A DNA stretch of 40,406 nt from Synechococcales cyanobacterium CRU_2_2 (GTDB lineage: Bacteria > Cyanobacteriota > Cyanobacteriia > PCC-9006 > JAAUQQ01): assembly GCA_012034805.1 (NCBI GenBank), contig JAAUOP010000031.1, positions 1-40,406 on the forward strand, in the 5' to 3' direction. Positions within the stretch are counted from its first letter, which is position 1. The number at the start of each line of letters is the position of its first letter. The notes under the pieces are model-generated. The model saw only the letters and a list, made by a program, of their open reading frames with translations. It was not told the DNA's origin and did no database searches. A program made the translations under genes and the position numbers. This document shows, one piece after another, positions 13,011-16,711 of this stretch.

Positions 13011-14983
13011 ATGGCAAAAATTGCGTTGTTGGTAGGGGTGAGTCAGTGTAGGTCGGGGTTTAAGCCACTCCCTGCGGCGGCTCGCGATGTCGAGGCGCTG
13101 CAAGCCGTGTTGAAGGATCCTGAGCGCGGTGGTTTTGAGGTTGTTCAAGTTTTAGTCGATCCAGAATTTTATGCTTTGCGGCGGGCGATCAGTAATCTCT
13201 TTACCAACCGAGCTGAGGACGATTTACTGCTGTTCTATTTTTCGGGTCATGGCATTGCAGATGAATATGGCCAGTTCTATTTCACAGCGGCTGACACCCA
13301 GGATGGAGACAATGGCCGCACGGACTTAGCGACGACGTTAGAGTCCAGGTTTGTTCATCAGGTCATGGGTCGCTGCGACTCTGAGCGCCAGGTGGTGATT
13401 TTGGACTGCTGCCACAGTGGCGCGTTTCCGGAGGGGATGCTGGCAAGAGGGGCTGAGACGATCGATTTTGCGCAGCAGTTGGGCGGTCGGGGCCGCGTGG
13501 TTTTGGCGTCTTCAGCGGCGATGGACTATTCCTTTGAGCGCGAAGGTGAGGAGCTGGCGATTTATACGCGCTACCTGGTGGAAGGTCTGAGCACGGGGGC
13601 GGCGGATTTGGATGAGGATGGCCAAATTTCGGCGGATGAACTGCATGAATATGTGAAGCGCAAGGTGCAAAAGGCAGCTCCGTCGATGTTGCCGGAACGG
13701 TATGTGTTTCAAGATGGGGAGAAGATTTTGCTAGCCAAGGCGGTGATGGCGGATCCGGAGCGACGCTATCGTAAGTGTGTGGAGCAATATAGCGAACAGG
13801 GCGTGATCTTGCCGACGGGGCGACGAATTTTGCGAATCACTTGTCGCAATCTGAGGCTTTCGGAGTCTGTGGCGGAGCGGATTGAGGCCGAGGTGTTGCA
13901 GCCCTATCGGGAGTATCAGGAGAGTTTGCTGGAGTATGGTGAGGTGTTGCGGGAGCTGTTGGGGTTGCACAATCCTTTGACGACAAGGGCGGAGCGGGAG
14001 TTGGAGGATTTGCGTAAGGAGCTGAAGTTGCGATCGGAGGATGTTGGACAGGTGCGGGCCAAGGCCGGGATCAAACCGTCTTCCCCCTCCCCAGCGCCCA
14101 AGCCGACAGCCCCAAAGCCGACGAGCGAGAGATCTTCGGGGGGTGCGAACAAGACACCGGGTGTTTCCAAAACACCCGGTGTCTGGGCGGAGGACTTGGG
14201 CCAGGGCATCAAGCTAGAGATGGTGGGAATCCCAGGGGGCGAATTTTTGATGGGCTCGCCCAAGTACGAAGCCGGGCGAACGGAGGATGAAGGCCCGCAG
14301 CACCGGGTGCGAGTACCCGAGTTTTTCTTGGGCAAATATGCAGTGACCCAGGCCCAGTGGAAACAAGTTGCGGCCCTGCCGAAGCAGCAGCGAGAGCTAA
14401 ACCCCGACCCAGCCCACTTCAAGGGAGCCAATCGCCCAGTGGAGCAAGTGAGCTGGGACGAAGCCCAGGAATTTTGTGCGCGGCTGAGCCAAGCGAGCGT
14501 GCAAACCTACCGACTGCCGAGCGAAGCGGAGTGGGAATATGCTTGCCGAGCGGGGACAACGACCCCATTTTCGTTTGGTGAAACCATCTCAACCGATCTT
14601 GCGAATTATCGAGGTCAAGACTGGAAAATCGGCGACACGATCTATCCCGGTAAATATGGTTCAGGACAATTGGGGAGTTTTCGAGAAGAAACTACCGACG
14701 TGGGAAGCTTTCCTGCCAATGCCTTTGATTTGTATGACATGCACGGCAACGTGTGGGAATGGTGCGAAGACGAGTGGCACGAGAGTTACAAAGGTGCACG
14801 ACCGACGGAAGTGCGTGGAAAAACAGCAATAAAAGTAATGAATTATACCGGCTCCTGCGGGGTGGCTCCTGGTACCTCAATCCGAGGCGCTGCCGCTCCG
14901 CCTTTCGCCTCAGGTATCATCGCGGCAGCGCCAACCGCCGCACTGGGTTTCGTGTCGCCTGCCGCGCCTTGCCGAGGACGTAA
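13011..14983 (+). CDS. Caspase-like (C14) protease fused to a DGR-diversified FGE/C-type-lectin domain (one frameshift)
   Basis: The DGR target protein, 657 residues after correction. The caspase domain (about 1-240) has His80 in YFSGHG and the Cys pair in LDCCHSGAF (Cys134 the likely nucleophile). An EF-hand-like loop, [12 protein letters not shown], lies at 199-210. A helical region (about 250-350) and a Pro/Ser/Lys linker (355-395) follow. The formylglycine-generating-enzyme/sulfatase-modifying domain runs from about 399 to the end ([35 protein letters not shown]). One base is missing between about 14793 and 14806: restoring it joins ESYKGA to [10 protein letters not shown] and LLRGGSW and ends at TAA 14981-14983. 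The uncorrected frame runs through the variable repeat into a low-complexity tail to 15032. Proposed role: ligand-triggered protease with a hypervariable sensor. Confidence 0.9.
14153..14183. repeat. Perfect 14-bp hairpin inside the caspase-FGE linker
   Basis: GACACCGGGTGTTT and its exact complement AAACACCCGGTGTC are separated by three bases. The element is in frame and encodes a duplicated KTPGV in the linker between protease and FGE domains. It could be a small palindromic element that inserted into a permissive linker. Confidence 0.75.
14846..14976 (+). repeat. DGR variable repeat (VR)
   Basis: The last 44 codons of the target gene. It aligns without gaps to the template repeat at 16581-16711 (offset 1735). 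All 16 differences are at template adenines: positions 14846, 14873, 14876, 14877, 14888, 14889, 14903, 14909, 14910, 14915, 14925, 14928, 14936, 14937, 14939 and 14940. Replacements are to T, C and G. They alter 11 residues, mostly template AAC/AAT codons, and none creates a stop. The 3' end (about 14950-14976) is unchanged, and the first non-adenine difference is at 14977, as expected for the initiation-of-mutagenic-homing region. Confidence 0.97.
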
Positions 14984-15023
14984 CGCTTTACCCTTTTTAC
15001 TCTTTTACCCTCTTTTGGTTCTT

Positions 15024-15051
15024 GGCGCGTAGCGCCTCCGAAATTTTTTTT
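15024..15051 (+). terminator. Hairpin with T-run downstream of the variable repeat
   Basis: GGCGC-GTA-GCGCC, then a short spacer and eight T (15044-15051), 40 bases after the target stop codon. It has the form of an intrinsic terminator separating the target gene from avd-RT. It may also be the hairpin that follows the homing region in some DGRs. Confidence 0.55.
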
Positions 15052-15080
15052 GAATTAATTAGGTCTCTTTCCTGGAAATT

Positions 15081-15494
15081 ATGACCATGGCTGTTTGTTG
15101 GACTATGGAAAACATTTCTATCCTTCAGCGAACCTATGACCTCATCAAATGGTACGTGCCGCTGTTGAATAAACTGCCCAAAAGCCATAAATTCAACCTA
15201 GGAGATCGGCTAATTGCTCGCCTATACGACATCCTCGAACAACTCATCCTTGCCCGCTATGAACATAACAAGCTACCGCGACTAACAAGCATCAACGGCA
15301 GTCTAGAAATTGTCCGCTATCAGACTCGAATCCTACTCGATTTTAACCTAATTAACGAACAACGATACGAATACGTTAGCAAATTAATCAACGACATTGG
15401 CATCGAACTTGGCGGCTGGATCAAACAACAAAAAAGTAAGCCCATCGCCTCAAAACCCCAAGCCTCAAACACCCAGGCCTCGCAACGCCCATGA
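15081..15494 (+). CDS. avd: Avd, DGR accessory variability determinant
   Basis: A 137-residue (or 129-residue) helical-bundle protein. The conserved family opening [19 protein letters not shown] and the pattern [20 protein letters not shown] ... [13 protein letters not shown] ... GGWIKQQ match Avd of diversity-generating retroelements. Avd forms a basic barrel-shaped pentamer that binds the reverse transcriptase and template RNA and is required for mutagenic cDNA synthesis. The start is either ATG 15081 (GGAA upstream) or ATG 15105, just before the conserved part. Its stop codon overlaps the RT start as ATGA (15491-15494), so the two are translationally coupled. The base composition of avd and RT looks more A-rich than neighbouring genes. 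Confidence 0.9.
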
Positions 15495-16564
15495 AACGCC
15501 ACGGCAACCTCTGGCCCCAAGTCACCGATTTTTCCAATCTCCTGCTCGCCGCCCGCAGAGCCCAACGCGGCAAACGTTTTTGTAACAACGTCCTGAAATT
15601 CAATCACGAACTAGAACGTGAATTGTTGCAACTCCAACAAGAGCTACTCACTCATACCTATCAACCCGGCCCCTACCGCACCTTCGAGATCTTCGAACCC
15701 AAGCGCCGCCTGATCTCCGCCGCGCCCTATCGAGACCGAATCGTCCACCACGTCCTTTGCAACATCATTAATCCCATTTTCGACCCTGGCTTTATTCATC
15801 ACAGTTATGCCAATCGTTTTGGTTTTGGCTCCCACCGCGCCCTCAAGAAATTCACCTCATTCGCACGCAATTCTCGCTACGTCTTTCAATGCGACATTCG
15901 CAGATATTTTCCTTCAATTGATCACGAAATCCTCAAGTCCTTACTCCGTCGAAAAATAAAATGTAAACCAACCCTAAACCTCCTCGACGTCATCATCGAC
16001 AATAGCAACCCTCAAGAACCGGTTTGCGATCACTTCCCCGGAGACGACCTCCTCACACCGCTGCAACGTCGCCACGGCTTACCCATCGGCAATCTAACCA
16101 GCCAATTCTTCGCCAACGTCTATCTCAACGGCTTTGACCACTTTGTCAAACGAGACCTGAAAGCCAAGCAGTATCTGCGCTACATGGATGACTTCGCACT
16201 TTTCTCCGACGACTTAGGCTTTCTCCAAGCCGCTCGCCCCAAAATAGAAGCCCACTTGTCTCAGCTTCGCCTCAAAATACATCCCATCAAAAGCCAAATT
16301 GTTGAGACCCGGCACGGAGCCAACTTCGTTGGCTATCGCGTCTTTCCCAACCACATCCGCATTCGCTCCAGCAATCTTCGCCGCGCTCGCCAGCACCATC
16401 GACAGCTTCAAGCTGGATACCAGGCAGGCACCTCAGACGTTCAATCGATTGGACAATCCCTCAGAAGCTGGGCTGCCCACCTCAACCACGCAGACACCTG
16501 GCGACTGCAACAACAGATATTTAGTCAACTGGTATTTAGTCAACCGGCCTTTACCAGCGACTAG
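15491..16564 (+). CDS. Diversity-generating retroelement reverse transcriptase
   Basis: A 357-residue RT. The fingers-palm motifs are clear: [16 protein letters not shown] (about 72-87), the first catalytic Asp135 in [14 protein letters not shown], the DGR-type IGNLTSQ at 199-205 (replacing the QGxxxSP of other RTs), and the catalytic YMDD at 231-234. There is no intron-type maturase or endonuclease domain. With Avd it copies the template RNA into cDNA with errors at adenines. Its start overlaps the avd stop, and the template repeat begins 16 bases after its stop codon. Confidence 0.96.
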
Positions 16565-16580
16565 AGAAGGGGTATGGCAA

Positions 16581-16711
16581 AACCGGCTCCTGCGGGGTGG
16601 CTCCTGGAACAACAATCCGAGGAACTGCCGCTCCGCCATTCGCAACAGGAATCATCGCGACAACGCCAACAACAACACTGGGTTTCGTGTCGCCTGCCGC
16701 GCCTTGCCGAG
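16581..16711 (+). repeat. DGR template repeat (TR)
   Basis: The 131-bp donor copy of the variable repeat, directly downstream of the RT gene. It contains 29 adenines, of which 16 differ in the VR; there are no differences at C, G or T. In the target frame it reads GGSW-NNN-PRN-CRSA-I-R-N-R-N-H and so on, rich in AAC/AAT codons, the usual DGR design that yields many amino acids without stops. The first mismatch after the homology is at 16712 (C against G), giving the inactive homing-region copy. It is likely transcribed with RT as the template RNA. Confidence 0.97.

Follow-up and report, generated by a model that had tools for sequence, protein, structure and literature searches.

A chromosomal locus with the full anatomy of a diversity-generating retroelement (DGR) lies within positions 1–40,406 of contig JAAUOP010000031.1 of Synechococcales cyanobacterium CRU_2_2 (assembly GCA_012034805.1), a stretch termed the window here. 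Our preferred reading, to which we give a probability of about 0.88, is that this locus is a cis-complete DGR of cyanobacterial type that varies the ligand surface of a caspase-type effector by the mechanism proposed below. The identification as a DGR with complete cis anatomy is strongly supported; the questions that need weighing concern the state of its target gene and how its adenine-only divergence should be read.

Adenine-only divergence between the repeats

The locus holds two copies of a 131-bp segment on the forward strand: the variable repeat (VR; 14846–14976), which encodes a C-terminal FGE segment, and the template repeat (TR; 16581–16711), which has 29 adenines among its 131 bases and is rich in AAY codons. 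An earlier note on this DNA, made from the letters alone, had described an ungapped match over these positions with every difference at a template adenine, and realignment bears this out. The 16 differences (A>T 6, A>C 5 and A>G 5) all fall at TR adenines, for which the probability is 4.9 × 10^-13 if mismatches are placed at random. Identity stops abruptly at both ends of the repeats, the first 3' mismatch being G versus C at 14977/16712. Read in the FGE frame, with codons counted from 14846, 11 VR codons are altered (AAC in eight cases; AAT, ATT and GAC in the rest) and all 11 changes are nonsynonymous, so that the note's count of altered residues holds for this frame. If the assembled open reading frame (ORF) is followed instead, 14 codons are altered, and 7 of these changes would be synonymous.

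Between the repeats lie the two protein components that the note had named. The accessory variability determinant (Avd; 15081–15494, forward strand) scores 129 bits against NF033474 (cut-off 80), matches the Pfam family bAvd at 1e-17 and finds the BPP-1 Avd in the PDB at E = 0.007. The reverse transcriptase (RT; 15491–16564, forward strand) is an intact ORF of 357 residues with the motifs IGNLTSQ and YMDD; it carries SQ in place of SP, as in the DGR clade, its catalytic motif is intact, and among PDB entries it matches the BPP-1 DGR RT 8ub7 best (E = 3.5e-57). Cyanobacteria have DGR RTs 56–69% identical to it, and the nearest RTs, at 61–72% identity, are nearly all cyanobacterial; judged by sequence identity, the enzyme groups with the cyanobacterial, clade 5E-like DGR RTs. 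At 15024–15036 on the forward strand, 47 nt 3' of the VR, stands a GC-rich hairpin with a 5-bp stem (GGCGC-GTA-GCGCC), followed by a T run. Hairpins of this kind, counted at p ≤ 0.05, occur 3' of 61/95 VRs of relatives as against 9/86 control stretches. A VR-adjacent stem-loop raises homing in BPP-1 (PMC12875486), and by analogy the hairpin in the window is a probable homing-enhancing inverted repeat.

To place these features in context, loci of relatives were scanned by script for adenine-only repeat pairs, with the window's own pair left out. The scan returned 93 VR/TR pairs in 71 loci, with 1413 differences at adenines and 79 elsewhere. Because 49 of the 93 pairs are likewise devoid of any non-adenine difference, the 16/16 pattern in the window is ordinary. 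The fraction of TR adenines changed is 0.55 in the window against a median of 0.48 among the relatives, and the VR lies 1.6–2.2 kb upstream of the TR in 51 of 90 same-strand pairs, as it does here. The closest architecture, in the relative G128, presents caspase-FGE, VR, Avd, RT, TR and RNA in the same order, with 10 adenine differences and 1 other. DGR cassettes are common in cyanobacteria, and the gene order of the window is standard for cyanobacterial DGRs.

A conserved RNA downstream of the template repeat

Directly 3' of the TR, on the forward strand at 16707–16860, is a conserved structured RNA that is detected by a covariance model, R1, with a cmsearch score of 106.6 bits. R1 was built from alignment A1, which comprises the stretches 3' of the TR in 40 loci; its consensus spans 159 positions, and of its 40 pairs, 34 are backed by compensatory changes. 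Pairing is found in 95% of cells, compared with 78% in shuffles and 30–45% for slid partners. One pair of P1, formed by alignment columns 11/66, is G-C in the window copy and U-A in 38 sequences. A search of Rfam at thresholds as loose as E = 5 matched no family to the RNA, and comparison of R1 with the BPP-1 cassette gave no significant match. No description of the covarying fold was found in the literature searched, subscription papers, including the BPP-1 structural work, being outside that search.

Among 145 relatives the RNA was found in 38 genomes: in all 23 that bear a DGR RT, and in 15 more in which none was detected. Of the 23 RT-bearing genomes, 13 gave no homology-search loci to R1, with possible overlap with other alignment records. 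In BPP-1, a spacer RNA that lies 3' of the TR both recruits bRT-Avd and primes synthesis of complementary DNA (cDNA) (PMC12875486); because of this parallel, the R1 RNA is probably the part of the template RNA that recruits RT and Avd and primes cDNA. In Nodularia, the region 3' of a DGR RT is strongly transcribed (PMC3610870), and Nostoc punctiforme strongly expresses the TR RNA of its DGR (PMC12691664); both observations fit this putative role as template RNA. The N. punctiforme DGR also shows adenine-specific variation in culture (PMC12691664), which speaks for the preferred reading of the locus.

Copies of the RNA also occur on their own. Contig C197 of the same genome holds two partial R1 copies (L186 3044–3192 and 3718–3831), with no TR or RT nearby, and these are probably relics. 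In the single-contig genome G010 (L218), a 143-bit copy stands at 3876315–3876471, and a search of that genome found no FGE-type TR, VR or RT to go with it. The relative G019 has a lone TR for which no VR was found elsewhere in its genome.

The target gene and its frame change

The target body (13011–14816, forward strand) encodes an N-terminal C14 caspase (PF00656, E = 5e-16) followed by an FGE-sulfatase domain of C-type lectin fold (PF03781, E = 2e-46) up to residue 602; this body lacks the C-terminal end. The caspase passes NF047832, "caspase, EACC1-associated type", with 164 bits against a cut-off of 140. Upstream on the same strand, a small gene (12585–12983) probably encodes an adaptor of EACC1 type that partners the caspase; its Pfam EACC1 match (E = 0.073) is weak and below cut-off, and a counterpart with 60% identity precedes the homologous caspase-FGE gene in the relative G094.

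The earlier note took the VR for the 3' end of the target gene. The VR is indeed the C-terminal FGE segment, but the note overlooked that it is out of frame in the assembled ORF (13011–15032), which reads the VR in a frame that does not give an FGE end. The FGE C-terminus is encoded in another frame than the target body and ends at a stop codon at 14981–14983; the AAY codons fit this FGE frame, and the assembled ORF is frame-broken before the VR. Comparison of frames with paralogues and relatives places the change at 14796–14803 on the forward strand.

In our view this frameshift most likely stems from a sequencing error: elsewhere in the assembly argG, and within the window dxs, are broken in like manner, and both genes are essential or nearly so. 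The dxs gene is split across two frames near 2092, with Pfam domains divided between 1025–2089 and 2098–2727, a sign of indel errors in what is a draft assembly of 332 contigs, 89% complete. A coding-frame scan of nine sampled stretches of this assembly (178 kb) returned 20 candidate frame breaks, nine or ten of which were judged, with both halves read, to lie inside conserved genes; these mostly look like single-base losses. Pfam domains are split in dxs, argG, a PBP, an AI-2E transporter and an AAA protein.

Other loci in the same genome

The genome has a DGR locus on each of contigs C11 and C46 as well, and both support the preferred reading with adenine-only pairs of their own. On C11 (L010), the TR lies on the minus strand at 6839–6958, and the VRs at 2762–2881 and 8539–8658 differ from it at 13 and 15 adenines, respectively, and at no other base. 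A third VR, at about 5180–5297, is one codon longer within a run of AAC, which may reflect RT slippage. The RT and one VR of this locus show apparent frame breaks, and these are suspect as assembly errors of the same kind, since indel errors are found across the assembly. The C11 DGR has three FGE targets beside a VMAP-C protein and a MoxR-type ATPase fragment, a ternary conflict setting of the kind reported for cyanobacterial DGRs (PMC10907252). On C46 (L009 2997–4536), the TR (3441–3558) and VR (4419–4536) differ at 17 adenines and nowhere else. This contig also carries an R1 RNA and an inverted piece of Avd, and no RT was found over its 12 kb.

Cassettes without a detected reverse transcriptase

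DGR RTs in relatives were sought at E ≤ 1e-20, and matches in G098 and G130, about 28% identical, are not of the DGR group. At this threshold the 15 R1-bearing relatives mentioned above yielded no DGR RT, and a looser search of the same 15 gave weak or about 28% identical RTs only, plus short remnants; such remnants stand beside the R1 RNA in G046 and G060. No Avd above cut-off was found in these 15 relatives either. Five genomes hold small cassettes in which an FGE target, VR, hairpin, TR and RNA occur without Avd or RT: G089 (L225 6812–7654; 13 adenine and 0 other differences), and, in reverse-strand coordinates, G082 (L224 7290–7867; 13 and 0), G068 (L223 7154–7742; 14 and 1), G122 (L230 6425–7262; 13 and 3) and G001, of the same genus (L217 36–795; 17 and 2).

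Adenine-only divergence thus outlives a detectable RT, or is separable from it, and because it is found in genomes with no detectable DGR RT, the pattern alone is not proof of present activity. We do not claim homing without an RT, since genes can be absent from draft assemblies and a population may be a mixture, as has been described in Thiohalocapsa (PMC10907252). Several orphan R1 RNAs lie directly 3' of an FGE gene. Scars of VR-TR recombination were considered as a general origin of the orphan RNAs and rejected, as others keep a separate VR and TR.

Alternative explanations

Two observations count against a DGR that diversifies its target at this locus: if the assembled sequence is right, the frameshift just 5' of the VR yields a caspase protein without the diversified segment, and zero drift is also seen in the G082 and G089 cassettes (13/0 each), where no DGR RT was detected. 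Were the frameshift real, the target would have been recently lost from intact DGR machinery, and the VR would record past homing only. The frame change is present in the sequence, and a few relatives, namely L055, L089 and one VR of L099 alone when frames were read by eye, likewise look to have the VR cut off from the FGE body; however, the VR itself shows no drift and the nine or ten broken conserved genes, dxs and argG among them, make such a loss unlikely. Still less probable is a programmed or phase-variable frameshift, in which slippage or an indel would switch on the VR-bearing C-terminus. The break does sit exactly at the boundary of constant and variable parts, but unrelated genes of the assembly show similar breaks, the large majority of relatives have a single open frame through the VR, and inspection of 14796–14803 revealed no slippery run or repeat tract, nor was a conserved frame change found among the relatives. 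Neither inactivation nor programmed switching was our first choice, given the broken dxs, argG, AAA, PBP and AI-2E transporter genes. That VR and TR are plain paralogous FGE ends, left by gene duplication and ordinary divergence, is barely credible. The genome is multi-copy for FGE genes (7 matches), but paralogous FGE gene bodies diverge at all bases, so that many non-adenine differences would be expected where the repeats have none (P about 5 × 10^-13), and the TR stands 3' of the RT and 5' of a conserved RNA; plain paralogy was dropped as contradicted by the adenine specificity.

The window RT might also serve other TR/VR pairs in trans, C46 among them, which would make the locus the engine of a dispersed family. 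The 17/0 pair, R1 RNA and inverted Avd piece on a contig without an RT speak for this, as does trans action described in Thiohalocapsa (PMC10907252). Against it, the RNA of C46 seems to resemble the C11 copy more than the window copy, which would make the C11 RT a possible donor, and an RT for C46 may lie beyond the contig end or have been lost from the incomplete assembly; we regard the idea as possible but doubtful. Equally tentative is a broader view of cyanobacterial DGRs as two-part systems, in which the 3' RNA would be a portable handle for RT and Avd, and cassettes without these genes would spread and be diversified in trans. Jointly with this, and with the same reserve, the RT acting on the C46, G082 and G089 cassettes might be unassembled or mobile, recently lost, or of another family.

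The preferred reading of a cis-complete DGR therefore stands with two qualifications to the earlier note. Its description of the element as active-looking agrees with the intact RT, Avd, TR, TR-adjacent RNA and VR hairpin, but the target is frameshifted in the assembly, zero non-adenine drift is usual, and the same pattern occurs where no RT was detected. Its step from zero drift to recent homing can be kept in part: the repeats show homing that is recent in evolutionary terms and are not evidence of homing now, given the 49/93 relatives' pairs that look alike and the 13/0 counts at RT-less cassettes.

Proposed mechanism and significance

In the mechanism we propose, the TR and the folded 3' RNA would be transcribed, Avd and RT would bind the 3' RNA and reverse-transcribe the TR, making errors at its adenines, and the resulting cDNA would replace the VR at the end of the target gene, aided by the hairpin behind it. 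A caspase-type effector, probably served by an EACC1 adaptor, would thereby present a ligand-binding surface of FGE type and C-type lectin fold that varies. Expression and present homing are steps that we infer, and the caspase-FGE protein would most likely act in defence, as the sensor of a system for cell death or phage conflict; for DGRs of this clade, a part in diversifying conflict-system sensors has been proposed (PMC10907252).

To the known cyanobacterial DGRs the locus adds one whose target is a caspase-type effector, in a genome with three TR/VR loci. While the rest of the cassette is of known type, the features that deserve further work are the R1 RNA and the cassettes lacking an RT. 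The R1 covariance model detects DGR template RNAs independently of the RT, in the 23 RT-bearing relatives and the 15 others alike, which makes it possible to catalogue TRs that are orphan or remote and to put trans action to the test. Two cautions apply: adenine-only divergence should not be equated with current activity, and draft-assembly frameshifts can mimic inactivation.

Comparison with known systems

The DGRs of filamentous cyanobacteria (Vallota-Eastman 2020, PMC7517822; clade 5E, PMC10907252), such as Npun_F4889-F4892 of Nostoc punctiforme, likewise unite a C-type-lectin/FGE target, Avd, RT and TR in one cassette, and their targets include some with caspase-like N-terminal domains, as at the window locus. 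The window differs in that its target is a caspase-FGE protein, frameshifted in the assembly, which probably has an EACC1 partner, and in that the source genome also holds the VMAP/MoxR-linked DGR of C11. Thiohalocapsa PB-PSB1 (PMC10907252) is alike in having several loci per genome, incomplete loci, and targets tied to ternary conflict systems; some of its incomplete loci have been explained by trans action or population variants, whereas here some relatives have cassettes with no RT found in the assembly.

The DGR of Bordetella phage BPP-1 (NC_005357; 8ub7–8ube) has a homologous RT (E = 3.5e-57) and a homologous, weakly matching Avd. It shares adenine mutagenesis and a VR-adjacent stem-loop, and its RT-Avd needs the RNA 3' of the TR. 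The gene order is avd-TR-brt in BPP-1 and avd-RT-TR in the window, and the phage target is a tail fibre in place of the caspase-FGE protein. Caspase/EACC1 conflict systems, reportedly set out as a class by Kaur et al. in 2020, resemble the locus in pairing an NF047832 caspase with a preceding EACC1-like gene, for which the EACC1 match here is below cut-off. The window locus differs from these systems in that its sensor domain is diversified by a DGR, presumably in the service of defence.

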